Below, one piece after another: positions 28,251-47,219 of a stretch of DNA of 47,219 nucleotides (the first letter of the stretch is position 1; each line of letters begins with the position of its first letter). This DNA is from a virus, in the IMG/VR virus record IMGVR_UViG_3300012228_000005, positions 1 through 47,219 of that record; one strand, given 5' to 3'. The notes under the pieces were generated by a model, which did not search any database, was not told the DNA's origin, and saw nothing but the letters and a program-made list of their open reading frames with translations. The position numbers and the translations under genes are program-made.

Positions 28251-29129
28251 ATGGAGAATGCTGGCGTTTACGACGGGACCGCTCTCCCGTTCATTCCCGC
28301 GCCCACTTACCACGCTTGTCGCTCGAGGATCTCGCGCGGCCAGCTCTGGACGCTGCACAGGAAGAGCCCCGCTCACCTGAAGGCCGAGCTCGACAATCCG
28401 AAGCCGCCCACTCAGGCCATGCTCAGGGGCTCGGCCATGCACACAGCCGTGCTCGAGCCCGCGCGCTTCCTCGTGGAGTACCTCGTGCCGAGCGACGTGG
28501 TCCTCGCTTGCGACAGGCGCACGAAAGACGGGCGAGCTCTCTTCGATGAGTGGCTCGGCAGGGCCAAGGCTGAGAAGCGCATCCCGCTCGGCTGGGATCC
28601 GGAGGAGAGTCGCTTCTACCGTGATGACGTCGTCACGGTCCTGACGGTCGCTGAGAAGCTCGCGCGTGATCCCGCGCTCTCGCGGCTCTTGCGTGAAGGC
28701 GAGGGCCAGACCGAGGCCACCTACTGCTGGGACGAGGACCGCTCGCGCTTCCGGATCCGCTTCGACCGCGTCAACCGGACTCGTGCGGGTTGGGTCGCGA
28801 TCGACCTCAAGAGCTCGAGCGACGCGCGCCTCGGGGCGATGCAGCGCAGCCTGGTCGACTACGGCCTGCACTTCCAGGCCGGCATGTACTCGGACGGCTT
28901 CAAGGCCTGTCGAGATGAGGAGCTGCGCGGCTTCTACTTCCTCGTATACGAGACCGAACCGCCCTACGCGCACGCCTTCTTCCGCTCTTCGGAGGACGTG
29001 CTCGAGGCTGGCCGCTTCGAGTACCGCGCTGCAGTCGCGGCTTTGCGCCTCTGCCAGGAGACCGACCAGTGGCCAGGGTACGAGAGTTTGGGCATCCAGG
29101 AATTAGGGCTTCCGTCTTGGTACAAATAG
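28251..29129 (+). CDS. RecE-like PD-(D/E)XK exonuclease
   Basis: A 292-residue nuclease. It shows the RecE/exonuclease VIII-type core: GSAMHTAVLEP (His63), FDRV (Asp172), IDLKS (Asp185, Lys187) and HFQAGMYSDG (the QxxxY motif, Gln209 and Tyr213). These enzymes degrade one strand from double-strand ends to leave 3' tails for an annealing protein. The RecT gene follows after one intervening HNH gene, so this is a RecE-RecT recombination pair. The C-terminus ends with the usual LPSWYK-like tail, showing the gene is complete although the HNH frame overlaps its last 61 bp. Confidence 0.85.
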   Translation: MENAGVYDGTALPFIPAPTYHACRSRISRGQLWTLHRKSPAHLKAELDNPKPPTQAMLRGSAMHTAVLEPARFLVEYLVPSDVVLACDRRTKDGRALFDEWLGRAKAEKRIPLGWDPEESRFYRDDVVTVLTVAEKLARDPALSRLLREGEGQTEATYCWDEDRSRFRIRFDRVNRTRAGWVAIDLKSSSDARLGAMQRSLVDYGLHFQAGMYSDGFKACRDEELRGFYFLVYETEPPYAHAFFRSSEDVLEAGRFEYRAAVAALRLCQETDQWPGYESLGIQELGLPSWYK

Positions 29130-29668
29130 ACCCCGAGGAGTGGCGTCCGATTCCTGGGGCGTCGCGATATGAAGCAAGCTCGCATGGGCGCGTGCGGCGC
29201 GCGCTAGGAACCGGCGTAAGTAGTGGAGTCGTGCTGCGCCCATGGCGCGCCAAGAGCGGTCACTTGAACGTATCTCTCGCGCGCGGCGACGGCAGATTGC
29301 CGTGGCGGCAAGGCGTACACAGATGCGTGGCGCGCGCCTTTTTCGGAGCGCCGCCAGACGAGCGTTGCTACGCCAATCACTTGAACGGGAACCCCGCAGA
29401 TAATCGGCCAGAGAATCTCGTGTGGGCTACGCCCTCTGAGAATGCCAGGCATTCGTGTCGAATCCTGCGGCGCGGCGGCGTCGGTGAGGCACATCCGGGC
29501 GCGAAACTGAACGTTGTGGCCGTCCGTTCCATTCGAGCCGCGCTGGACTCTGGAGCCTCGCTACACAGCCTCGCTCGGGCACACGGCGTCACGCGCCCAG
29601 TCATCAAAGGAATTCGCGCCCGCACAAGTTGGGCCCACGTCGACCCTGAATGGAGACACCGTCAATGA
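29069..29668 (+). CDS. HNH homing endonuclease with NUMOD4 (between recE and recT)
   Basis: A 199-residue protein. The GTG at 29069 was chosen because AGGAG lies 8 nt upstream; it overlaps recE by 61 bp. Parts in order: NUMOD4-like EEWRPIPGASRYEASSHG (24-41), HNH core with VHRCVARAFFG (83-93) and NHLNGNPADNRPENLVWATP (103-122) followed by NARH (125-128), and a C-terminal helix-turn-helix-type DNA-binding end with LHSLARAHGVTRPVIKGI (165-182). This domain order is standard for freestanding phage HNH homing enzymes. The stop overlaps the RecT start (ATGA), so both neighbours remain intact. The spread is inference; I see no intron borders. Confidence 0.85.
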   Translation: MARVREFGHPGIRASVLVQIDPEEWRPIPGASRYEASSHGRVRRALGTGVSSGVVLRPWRAKSGHLNVSLARGDGRLPWRQGVHRCVARAFFGAPPDERCYANHLNGNPADNRPENLVWATPSENARHSCRILRRGGVGEAHPGAKLNVVAVRSIRAALDSGASLHSLARAHGVTRPVIKGIRARTSWAHVDPEWRHRQ

Positions 29669-35474: not shown

Positions 35475-35532
35475 GAAGCTCGCCGAGATCGAGGCCGACG
35501 TGCTCGACGCGGCGGAGGAGGCGGGCAAGTGA
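35461..35532 (+). CDS. 23-residue peptide related to N-terminus of gene 36773
   Basis: Starts MLTPEKLAEIEADVLDAAE and ends in a GTGA overlap with the methyltransferase. The gene just after the methyltransferase begins MTLTPAKLAEIEAAARKAT. The shared stretch is encoded by a 22-nt identical direct repeat (35476-35497 and 36791-36812). It is probably the cut-off front of an Ea22-like gene left when the methyltransferase gene was acquired. Confidence 0.45.
   Translation: MLTPEKLAEIEADVLDAAEEAGK
35476..35497 (+). repeat. 22-bp direct repeat, left of methyltransferase gene
   Basis: Identical to 36791-36812 (AAGCTCGCCGAGATCGAGGC plus CG). Together the two copies flank the methyltransferase gene and lie at the same codon positions of two related short coding starts, suggesting cassette insertion or recombination at this site. 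Confidence 0.8.
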
Positions 35533-36776
35533 GGTATCTCTCAGTGTGCAGCGGCATCGAGGCCGCGACCGTCGCGTGGCATCCGCTAGGATGGACGCCG
35601 GTAGCATTCTCGGAGATCGAGCGCTTCCCGTGTAGCGTCCTTGCGCACCACTACCCAGACGTGCCGAACCTCGGAGACATGACAAAGATTGATGACCTAC
35701 CAACAGTCGACGTTCTCGTGGGAGGCACGCCCTGCCAGTCCTTCAGCGTCGCTGGCCTCCGAAAAGGCATGGCGGACCCGCGTGGAAACCTGGCCCTCGT
35801 CTATCTCCGACTGGCTGACAGAATGCGCCCCCGTTGGATCGTGTGGGAGAACGTCCCGGGCGTACTGTCGTCGAACGGAGGACGGGACTTTGGCGCCTTC
35901 CTCGGAGGGATTGCTCAGCTCGGGTACGGGTTCGCCTACCGAGTGCTGGACGCTCAGTTCTTCGGATTGGCCCAGCGACGGAAGCGCGTGTTCGTTGTCG
36001 GCCATCTTGGAGACTGGCGACGTGCCGCAGCGGTACTTCTTGAGCGCGCGGGCGTGTGCTGGGATCCTCCGCCGAGCAGAGAGGCGGGGAAAGACGTTGC
36101 CCCAAGCCTTGCGGCTCGCACTAGAGGAGGTGGCGGGCTCGGCACCGACGCAGAGTGCGGCGGAGCATTGATCGCCGACACGGTCCGCTCGCATCCGCGA
36201 CCGGGCAGCAATTCGCTTGGAGCCATCACGCACGTGCTCTGCGCCGAAGGCCACGATGCGAGCGAAGACGGCACGGGACGAGGAGTTCCGCTCGTGGCGC
36301 GCGCTCTTACGAAGAACGGATGCCTCGACGGCGAGAGTGAGACCTTCGTCGCCTGCGATCTCCAGCAAGCAACCTCGCCCGACCATCGTGGCAGCCCGAC
36401 TCCTGTGGCGCCTTCGCTCAGCGGACAGATGAGAGTCTGCGCCTTCAACGCGCGCCAAGATCCGGACGTGTCGGGCGAGATCGCAGCGCAAATCGGAGCG
36501 AAGGATACGGGGCACGCCATCGCGTGGAACCTGAGAGGCCGCGATGGCGGCTCGCTGCCCGAAGTCGGAGACGTGAATTTGCGCGCGTCGTCGGGCGGCT
36601 CGTCGCGCTCGTATGTTGGCATCCGCCGCCTCACCCCGCGCGAGTGCGAGCGACTCCAGGGCTTCCCGGACGACTACACGAACATCCCCGGCGCGTCTGA
36701 CTCCGCTCGCTACCGTGCGCTCGGAAACTCGATGGCCGTGACGGTCATGCGCTGGATCGGTAAGCGCATCTCATGA
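35529..36776 (+). CDS. DNA (cytosine-5) methyltransferase
   Basis: A 415-residue C5-methyltransferase, starting at GTG in a GTGA overlap. Motif I region SVCSGIEAATVAW, motif IV GGTPCQSFS with catalytic Cys69, motif VI ENVPGV (107-112), motif VIII QRRKRVFVVG (149-158), motif IX RRLTPRECERLQGFP and motif X RYRALGNSMAV are all present. It transfers a methyl group from S-adenosylmethionine to cytosine, target unknown. The region between motifs VIII and IX (about 160-360) is the target-recognition part. No cognate restriction enzyme is seen, so this is an orphan enzyme, probably protecting phage DNA. Codon third positions are less GC-rich than in neighbours, suggesting recent transfer. Confidence 0.92.
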   Translation: MRYLSVCSGIEAATVAWHPLGWTPVAFSEIERFPCSVLAHHYPDVPNLGDMTKIDDLPTVDVLVGGTPCQSFSVAGLRKGMADPRGNLALVYLRLADRMRPRWIVWENVPGVLSSNGGRDFGAFLGGIAQLGYGFAYRVLDAQFFGLAQRRKRVFVVGHLGDWRRAAAVLLERAGVCWDPPPSREAGKDVAPSLAARTRGGGGLGTDAECGGALIADTVRSHPRPGSNSLGAITHVLCAEGHDASEDGTGRGVPLVARALTKNGCLDGESETFVACDLQQATSPDHRGSPTPVAPSLSGQMRVCAFNARQDPDVSGEIAAQIGAKDTGHAIAWNLRGRDGGSLPEVGDVNLRASSGGSSRSYVGIRRLTPRECERLQGFPDDYTNIPGASDSARYRALGNSMAVTVMRWIGKRIS

Positions 36777-45758: not shown

Positions 45759-45936
45759 CCGGGAGCTCGTGCACGGGCTCGAGCTTCTCGAGCTCGCCTT
45801 CCGCTGGGAGCAGGAGCTCCTCGAGGAATGTAGTGAGCGCGTGTACCAGCATGAGCGCGCGCTACTGCCAAGGCAGAGGGAAGCGGCTGAGAAGGTGATA
45901 GGCAGGCGCACCGCGGCCGAACACGGCGAGGAATGA
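45718..45936 (+). CDS. small helical protein between terS and terL, 72 aa
   Basis: From the ATG at 45718 (the frame is open to a TTG at 45649), overlapping terS by 41 bp. Almost wholly coiled-coil-like helix (LVHGLELLELAFRWEQELLE). Its stop overlaps the terL start (ATGA). Function unknown, but the overlaps on both sides suggest it belongs to the packaging unit. Confidence 0.5.
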   Translation: MQTRRAESREFQSDRELVHGLELLELAFRWEQELLEECSERVYQHERALLPRQREAAEKVIGRRTAAEHGEE

Positions 45937-47219
45937 AGGCCGCCCCGCCGCCCTCCGAGAGGTATCACGCGCACGGAGCAGCGGTGGTGCTGGCGAGTTG
46001 GCTGGAAGGGAAGGAGATCCCGCCCGAGGAGTGCATGATCGTCGGGCCCGCTGGATGCGTTGCCGGCGAGACGGAGCTCTGGGATCCGATCGCTGGCGAG
46101 GGCCGGCGCATCGACGAGCTTCAGCGTGCGCAAGAGCGACCGTGGGTGTCCACGCTTCACGGCCCGGTGCGCGCGCACGCGCCTTTTGTCAAGGGCTTCG
46201 CGAGGCTCTACCGCGTCGAGCTCGCCGGAGGCGCGTCTTGCCTGGCAACGGGCGACCACCTTTTCCTTTCCCGCGCGGGGTGGATCCGTACCGATTCGCT
46301 CTCGCCGGGCATGGAACTCCTGTCGTCGTCGCTCGAAGGTGCTCCCCGTTCGTCGAGAACAACCGCAGATTCGACAGCCGGTTGTCCCAGCTCTTGCCGT
46401 TCCGGTGATCGACGACCTCTCGTCGCGTCAGGAAGCGCCCGAGCTTCTTCTCCATCAGGAGCCGATGCTCGCGCACGTAGCCATGCCGATTTGCCTGAGG
46501 GTGGTCCGGCATCAGCACGAGCCAATAGCCGTCCTTGTCCTGCATGCGGCCTCCACGCCACGCCGGATTCAAATACCCAGCGACCGGCCGCGCCATCGGG
46601 TGTGCTCCAGGAGGCGCACGCCGCCAGCCTGGACGTGGGAGCGCGTGGCGCTCTACGTACTCACGGACGATCCGCTTGTTGGTCCCGACGCGACGGCCGA
46701 TCGCCTCCAGGGTGGCGCCTTCTCGCGCCATCCGCGCTACAAGCTCGTGATTACGCGCGCACGCGGCTGTTGCCCGAGGAGGCATCGGTCCTGTGGGACA
46801 GGGTACGGTCCGTCCGTTTCGAGCGCAACGACTTCTACTATGACCTCCACGTCCCGGGAGCCGAGCACTATCTTGGTGACGGCCTGTGGTCGCACAACAC
46901 CGGAAAGTCGTTAGGAGTTGGCTGTTTTCTCTGGGGCTTCCTCGATCGCTGGTCGAACGCGAAGGTGCTCGTGCTGCGCAAGACGCGCGTCTCGCTCAAC
47001 GACTCCTTCCTCGACACCTTCGAGACCGAGGTGCTCGGCTTCGGGCACTACGCCATCGGAGACCGCACGCGCGAGCACCGCTCGAGGTACGTGCACCAGG
47101 ACGGCGGCGAGCTCGTGCTGGGTGGCATGGACCAGGGCCGGCGGCTCTTCTCGACGCAGTACCACATCGTCTACGTCAACGAGATGACCGAGCTCACCGA
47201 AGCTGAGTGGATGTCGCTC
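45933..47219 (+). CDS. terL: terminase large subunit, N-terminal part with in-frame intein (continues at 1-1236)
   Basis: The frame is open from ATG 45933 to the window end and continues at position 1. The N-extein is 41 residues and ends GPAG; the C-extein begins TGKS at 46899. Joined, GPAGTGKS is a perfect Walker A P-loop. Next comes the ATPase core (VLVLRKTRVSLNDSFLDTF). Between lies the 281-residue intein. Without splicing the P-loop does not exist, so packaging ATPase activity must depend on intein removal. Precursor 799 residues, mature 518. Confidence 0.92.
   Translation, partial: MKAAPPPSERYHAHGAAVVLASWLEGKEIPPEECMIVGPAGCVAGETELWDPIAGEGRRIDELQRAQERPWVSTLHGPVRAHAPFVKGFARLYRVELAGGASCLATGDHLFLSRAGWIRTDSLSPGMELLSSSLEGAPRSSRTTADSTAGCPSSCRSGDRRPLVASGSARASSPSGADARARSHADLPEGGPASARANSRPCPACGLHATPDSNTQRPAAPSGVLQEAHAASLDVGARGALRTHGRSACWSRRDGRSPPGWRLLAPSALQARDYARTRLLPEEASVLWDRVRSVRFERNDFYYDLHVPGAEHYLGDGLWSHNTGKSLGVGCFLWGFLDRWSNAKVLVLRKTRVSLNDSFLDTFETEVLGFGHYAIGDRTREHRSRYVHQDGGELVLGGMDQGRRLFSTQYHIVYVNEMTELTEAEWMSL
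46056..46898 (+). other. intein in TerL Walker A motif
   Basis: 281 residues in frame with TerL. Block A: Cys1 in CVAGETELWDP. Block B: TGDH with Thr65 and His68 (CLATGDHLFLSRAGW). Block F: YYDLHVPGAEHYLGDG. Block G: SHN with penultimate His and final Asn, followed by Thr as the +1 extein nucleophile. All splicing residues are present, so it is probably active. Residues about 90-240 in the sense frame are Ser/Arg/Pro/Ala-rich and have no endonuclease motif; that DNA is the antisense HNH gene. The Hint parts alone (about 90 plus 40 residues) would be a normal mini-intein. Confidence 0.9.
46189..46785 (-). CDS. HNH homing endonuclease encoded antisense inside the TerL intein
   Basis: A 198-residue minus-strand protein. 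Residues 12-45 form a helix-turn-helix (LVARMAREGATLEAIGRRVG); then YLNPAWRGGR (71-80), GYVREHRLLMEKKLGRFL (102-119), VVDHRNGKSWDNRLSNL (124-140) and EH (148-149). This is the standard HNH_3-type homing nuclease layout, His127 and His149 being the likely catalytic/metal residues. The HNH core lies opposite intein residues 95-134. The last 40 residues (Arg/Gly/Lys-rich) lie antisense to intein block B and may be an added tail. Codons end mostly in G/C on this strand. No promoter was found. It could cut the intein-free terL allele; that is inference. Confidence 0.88.
   Translation of the reverse strand: MPPRATAACARNHELVARMAREGATLEAIGRRVGTNKRIVREYVERHALPRPGWRRAPPGAHPMARPVAGYLNPAWRGGRMQDKDGYWLVLMPDHPQANRHGYVREHRLLMEKKLGRFLTRREVVDHRNGKSWDNRLSNLRLFSTNGEHLRATTTGVPCPARANRYGSTPRGKGKGGRPLPGKTRLRRARRGRASRSP
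47097..47219. repeat. terminal direct repeat, right copy
   Basis: Identical to 1-123; see the left copy. The overlap allows the window to be closed into a circle with no frame change in terL. Confidence 0.95.

Follow-up and report, generated by a model that had tools for sequence, protein, structure and literature searches.

A terminase large subunit (TerL) gene in the viral record IMGVR_UViG_3300012228_000005 is interrupted by what is best explained as a mobile intein coded on both DNA strands, in which one strand carries a continuous intein frame and the complement of its central linker carries a separate HNH endonuclease gene. The stretch analyzed, hereafter the window, is the record at its full length of 47,219 nucleotides. 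We hold this explanation with high confidence, and the splicing, nuclease expression, cleavage and homing that it involves are predictions from sequence and modeled structure. Only a little less firmly, we regard the window element as one member of a widespread class of dual-strand-coded selfish elements that occupy the P-loops of TerL proteins and of at least one helicase, with about 470 bp shared between the two coding strands in one fixed phase that has been retained despite very wide divergence.

The ends of the window carry an exact 123-nt terminal repeat (1-123 = 47097-47219), and the genome is therefore circularly closed, with a length of 47,096 bp and with TerL running across the join. 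The TerL frame is open from 45933 to the contig end and, split by the contig ends, resumes at 1-1236, the first 123 nt of which are a copy of the contig end. The N-extein (45933-46055, plus strand) ends with the first half of the Walker A motif, MIVGPAG, and the C-extein (46899-47219, plus strand) begins with TGKS and carries on at 124-1236 past the circular join. The intein is thus inserted within Walker A, at GPAG^TGKS, and the same motif is continuous, as GPAGTGKS, in the intein-free TerLs of two relatives (L007 and L009) that are 76-77% identical to the window TerL. Elsewhere in the window, a DNA methyltransferase is encoded at 35529-36776 (plus strand, PHROG E=3e-95), and a second HNH gene, apparently free-standing, of another subfamily and on the sense strand, lies at 29069-29668 (plus strand, PHROG HNH E=3e-36); for most of the other large ORFs of this phage that were scanned, no PHROG match was found.

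An initial sequence-only reading had described an uninterrupted TerL-intein frame here, and this is borne out. The frame at 46056-46898 (plus strand) comprises 281 codons without a stop, from Cys1 to His280-Asn281, followed by Thr at the +1 position. Block A reads CVAGETELWDP, the block B histidine lies within LATGDHLFL, and the C-terminal end is YYDLHVPGAEHYLGDGLWSHN^T, with SHN as the final intein residues. The Hint-N half (46056-46331, plus strand) contains blocks A and B with the catalytic Cys1 and block B His68, and the Hint-C half (46788-46898, plus strand) contains blocks F and G and the terminal His-Asn; between them lies a linker of about 152 residues (46332-46787, plus strand) that is predicted to be disordered, is kept free of stops, and has the HNH gene on its opposite strand. 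The intein matches the Pfam Intein_splicing model (E=1.2e-7; 32.1 bits, slightly below the curated cut-off of 35.8), and the family intein profile matches the solved DnaB and RecA inteins with E-values down to 6e-24. Among 45 aligned family inteins C1 and H68 are invariant, as are D263, V266 and N281 in the family alignment, and H280-N281 and the following Thr join C1 and H68 in being invariant or nearly so across the family. An AlphaFold2 model built on the 45 aligned inteins has pLDDT values of 93-98 over Hint-N residues 1-90, exceeds 90 over roughly the final 36 residues and stays mostly below 50 in linker residues 95-240, and the fold closest to the Hint halves is that of the Mtu RecA mini-intein (TM 0.90 by target length, rmsd 1.9). 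No nuclease match was found in the sense linker, and an in-frame endonuclease domain is absent from the intein polypeptide. The catalytic residues, the predicted Hint fold, the in-frame insertion into a conserved motif and the existence of empty alleles together identify the insert as a real intein, one that would be expected to splice.

The minus-strand gene at 46189-46785 encodes 198 residues plus a stop, and its identification as an HNH endonuclease gene is confirmed by a match to HNH_3 (PF13392; E=5.4e-8) that exceeds the Pfam cut-off and by a PHROG HNH match (E=9e-23). The nuclease motif (EHR...DH...N...N) and HNH_3 domain lie at 46351-46467 (minus strand); PF13392 is present in 51/51 members of the family, and residues H107, H127, N135, N139 and H149 are invariant in the 51 aligned sequences. 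AlphaFold2 predicts two domains, both near or above pLDDT 90: an HTH-like N-terminal DNA-binding domain of four helices at residues 4-46 (46648-46776, minus strand; pLDDT about 90) and the HNH domain at residues 80-156. HTH Pfam models are matched by some family members, and the protein thus combines a conserved catalytic motif with an adjacent, predicted DNA-binding module, as tested for HNH nucleases. In a fold search the resemblance to I-HmuI was modest (E 0.14, probability 0.93). I-HmuI is intron-encoded, and the resemblance, seen in the HNH core both by sequence profile and as the best fold match, is limited to the HNH region.

The conserved portion of the HNH protein, residues 1-156 (46318-46785, minus strand), is co-terminal with the sense linker. 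The tail that follows (46189-46317, minus strand) lies over Hint-N codons, is unconserved as HNH protein, and is poorly predicted, with low pLDDT from about residue 156; these last 42 codons are Hint-N coding DNA read in reverse and have diverged from the sequence of the relative. The working overlap is therefore about 470 nt (46318-46785), shorter than the 600 nt or so noted initially. The HNH gene has its start codon 3 nt away from Hint-C and reaches the end of Hint-N at residue 156, so it occupies the slot normally taken by an in-frame endonuclease domain, as had been noted, with residues 1-156 filling the gap between the Hint halves exactly.

This layout recurs widely. An independent phage genome (L004) has the same antisense arrangement, with a TerL 64% and an HNH protein about 50% identical to those of the window, and searches with the HNH protein led to further loci in which ORFs of 700-800 residues opposite the HNH gene proved to be TerLs with Hint domains. 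HNH profile scans of viral contigs returned 441 and 548 relatives, and from each set the best 80 were retained; a long ORF lies opposite the HNH gene in 79/80 of the best 80 of the 441 matches. In all, at least 135 distinct HNH loci are antisense within a Hint-containing ORF, and both Hint halves are detected in 131 of them, a count that is not a population frequency, as the Hint models were derived from the family and the search was seeded with antisense members. The loci range in GC content from about 31 to 71%, and the inteins are 271-347 residues long. Nearly all insertions are in the P-loop, ahead of SGK/TGK or else behind GK, and the host gene is nearly always TerL; one host gene (L112) is a helicase. 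Cultured phages also carry the element: eight Pectobacterium/Dickeya phage records (Pectobacterium phage Ymer and relatives) and Pseudoalteromonas phage PHS3. In the Ymer record the intein-bearing terL is annotated as a hypothetical protein, and the TerLs of Klebsiella and E. coli phages without the intein align to it in two pieces that flank the intein. The public annotation of PHS3 (L142, KX912252.1, 655-2778) gives only the C-terminal TerL, lists the HNH separately as an opposite-strand gene, and omits the intein and the N-terminal TerL.

Several loci at the margins of this family are worth recording. In an AT-rich phage (L022/L023/L024, 1691-4108) the TerL intein lies before CILFDE in the Walker B region rather than in the P-loop, and its antisense HNH, which has the nuclease domain at the N-terminus, forms a divergent branch with unchanged phase; relatives of this type of HNH were not found among named phages. 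At L152 (1-1300) a Hint-N lies opposite an HNH gene with one sense stop near the start of the linker, making this a candidate in which the stop may stem from decay or from misassembly at the end of the contig. A contig from a Nitrospira MAG (L117, 1523-4489) has a long DNA methylase-like ORF opposed, in the family phase, by an antisense HNH, and no Hint domain was detected in that ORF.

In 135/135 loci the relative phase of the two genes is identical, with codon position 1 of the HNH gene facing codon position 1 of the intein. One might suppose that this is simply the easiest phase in which to overlap. This idea finds no support: among HNH homologues that lack the layout, stops are fewer in the in-register antisense phase than in the family phase (5.5 vs 7.2 per 150 codons). 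Because the phase used is not the one with the fewest stops in ordinary HNH genes, its constancy most likely reflects common ancestry, and this suggests one old origin for a now widespread architecture. The initial proposal that a reversed HNH gene had entered a mini-intein is thus retained as regards the antisense HNH, and is set aside as regards a one-off invasion, given that at least 135 loci share the phase. The idea that HNH wobble positions tune the polarity of the sense linker, as a reason for the fixed phase, received no support; A-ending codons, which are hydrophobic on the sense side, are commoner in HNH genes than in TerL.

The distribution of the intein is patchy: it is absent from TerLs 76-77% identical to that of the window and present in one that is 64% identical. 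This supports mobility, and the earlier suggestion that the intein remains mobile is a reasonable reading of the pattern. Recent homing would leave an intein more alike than its flanks; in the comparison with L005, too near a relative to show such a contrast, identity is about 99.7% across the intein and likewise over some 2 kb of flank. In two loci the HNH gene is damaged, by a stop in L050 and by truncation in L021, and the sense frame is intact, as expected if the nuclease decays while the intein must still splice. An alternative is that the antisense HNH serves mainly in competition or regulation, cutting rival phages or damping TerL through antisense RNA, rather than in homing. HNH homing enzymes can exclude co-infecting phages (PMC7468147), and an antisense transcript would overlap the terL mRNA; the scattered occurrence of the element at exact P-loop positions across many TerL families nevertheless fits homing, and homing and competition are compatible with each other. 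We consider a mainly competitive or regulatory role unlikely.

It is less likely again that an unrelated free-standing HNH gene has been carried, reversed, as a passenger in a TerL mini-intein that it does not drive. HNH homologues also occur free-standing, which makes a passenger conceivable and cleavage at the intein site by this enzyme a prediction. Against a passenger, however, a conserved HNH fills the endonuclease slot exactly and in one phase at no fewer than the 135 loci, and its protein is under strong purifying selection. Tree distances, moreover, agree better between HNH and Hint (rho 0.61) than between Hint and TerL (rho 0.41), and this agreement, together with the patchy presence, is as expected of a unit that moves as one.

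That both strands are under selection is seen in the pattern of open frames and substitutions, which also bears on whether one frame is a chance shadow of the other. Long antisense ORFs are abundant in GC-rich phages, including the ORF list of the window itself, and in such DNA either of the two frames, HNH or intein, could in principle arise as a shadow of the other. In the HNH region of 73 loci, however, two of the six frames are open in nearly every case, the other four averaging 4.3-8.4 stops, with one extra stop-free frame in three of the most GC-rich loci, and the layout is found down to 31% GC. When 44 pairs are aggregated, 54% of the differences in TerL and 50% of those in Hint-N fall on sense position 3, whereas in the overlap 48% fall on sense position 2, where the antisense HNH gene has its wobble; the wobble position thus changes strand. 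Taken by itself, the window-L004 pair is so far diverged that its codon-position signal is weak. Across 39 independent pairs dN/dS in the overlap is about 0-0.3 in the HNH frame and exceeds 1 in the sense frame, which contains no stops in any of them.

The avoidance of sense stops is equally marked. When expected stops are computed from the given HNH proteins and their own codon usage, the 73 loci should contain 463.5 in the sense frame and contain 0; for the window alone the expectation is 5.1, with 0 observed (P=0.002). Phe followed by M, I, T, N or K in the HNH protein, where the pair would force a sense stop, occurs in 0/148 cases, and the corresponding frame of HNH homologues outside the antisense layout contains about 7 stops per 150 codons. 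These results uphold the earlier claim that selection has kept the sense frame free of stops. Taken with the dN/dS values in the HNH frame, they indicate selection for a protein product on the antisense strand and for an open frame on the sense strand, and a chance shadow ORF, refuted by the frame, wobble, dN/dS and stop-avoidance tests (464 sense stops expected against none), is left with very little probability.

Some nuclear group I introns carry antisense endonuclease genes, and we considered whether the insert might be such an intron, or another RNA element, with an incidentally open sense frame. As in those introns, the endonuclease gene is on the strand opposite to the host gene and would be expressed separately. 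Unlike an intron, which splices as RNA and needs no open sense frame, the window element would rely on protein splicing, which would force dual coding; the splicing residues are all invariant in the sense frame, the Hint fold is confidently predicted, and no Rfam match, to a group I ribozyme or otherwise, was found anywhere in the window, so this reading is rejected as extremely improbable. An inversion or chimera introduced by metagenomic assembly, a natural concern for an assembled viral contig, is refuted to the point of being negligible, since the sequence is common to three IMG/VR contigs and the identical layout occurs in a diverged, independent genome and in separately sequenced cultured phages.

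Separate expression of the nuclease, also proposed initially, has support at the level of translation, good in the family and slighter in the window. Shine-Dalgarno motifs precede 36% of in-frame HNH starts, compared with 7.6% of the starts on that strand that are out of frame (p=2.5e-15), and the full AGGAGG precedes the HNH start in several family loci. In the window there is a weak Shine-Dalgarno-like AGGA (46789-46792, minus strand) 3 nt before the HNH ATG, which is close for a ribosome site, and no sigma-70-like promoter for the HNH gene was found. These start-site motifs make independent translation well supported for the family and weakly supported for the window member, and transcription of the HNH gene, possibly at another time, would follow from the proposed arrangement.

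We suggest that a dual-strand-coded mobile intein of this type would work as follows. The sense strand would yield a single TerL-intein precursor, in which the Hint halves would fold together around a disordered linker of about 150 residues and splice out, joining GPAG to TGKS and so restoring the ATPase. The complementary strand of the linker would yield a separate HTH-HNH nuclease, translated from an antisense transcript at a start of its own. This nuclease would cleave the P-loop site of terL genes that lack the intein, and repair templated by the intein-bearing copy would insert both genes together. Over the nuclease gene, the sense frame would be kept merely open and the antisense frame kept as protein.

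The textbook intein is one polypeptide in which splicing and homing domains are fused. Inteins are known in mycobacteriophage TerLs, and several encode active homing endonucleases (PMC5050341); the window element resembles them in having a Hint domain in the TerL ATPase region, the same endonuclease slot and presumed homing, but its endonuclease is a separate protein from the opposite strand rather than part of the sense intein polypeptide. Split inteins with a free-standing endonuclease gene between their halves, in fractured genes, are described by Dassa et al. (2009), as cited in PMC10448857; going by that secondary account, they share with the window an endonuclease that is a separate gene tied to the intein, and differ in that the host gene and intein lie in two ORFs, whereas the window intein frame is continuous over the endonuclease gene. 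The nearest published case found is ShiLan, in which phage DNA methylase genes carry an out-of-frame HNH insertion (Arsenault et al., 2025, PMC11855218). There too an HNH of similar type, linked to ours by tblastn, overlaps an open host frame and presumably homes. The ShiLan HNH, however, shares the strand of the host gene but not its frame, and the insert has no splicing domain, whereas the window HNH is antisense inside a complete intein. Judged by their hallmarks, the window element belongs with none of the in-frame bifunctional inteins, split inteins, ShiLan-type elements or group I introns. A search of the open PMC literature turned up no account of an endonuclease gene lying antisense within an intein, and priority for this arrangement is accordingly likely but, with subscription papers outside that scope, not certain.

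Three further loci show HNH frames on the same strand as the gene they overlap. A DNA methylase ORF of a huge phage (L140, LR756508.1, 1558-3912) has intein-like ends and an out-of-frame HNH, and is perhaps intermediate between ShiLan and the antisense layout. In L099 (1175-3190), a contig that also has the antisense layout, a second Hint-containing ORF is spanned by an out-of-frame HNH. In Gordonia phage GAL1 (L143, 1754-2641) the HNH frame overlaps a gene annotated as a nucleotide kinase, a candidate hidden HNH.

The arrangement proposed here has implications for how selfish elements couple splicing with homing. The two activities are separate as proteins yet locked together in DNA, such that nuclease expression need not be tied to that of the packaging motor, and simple deletion of one gene would endanger the other. 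If correct, this would be a third way to couple splicing with homing, beside in-frame fusion and splitting, and the family would rank with the largest and best supported sets of antisense overlapping genes. In practical terms it corrects the annotation of terL genes with this layout, which are recorded as hypothetical or truncated in public phage genomes. Several questions become testable: how long selection can maintain double-strand coding, for which more than 130 natural replicates with a wobble-position readout are available; how homing elements control the dose of nuclease relative to host-gene expression; and whether other "mini-inteins with long linkers" may also conceal antisense genes.
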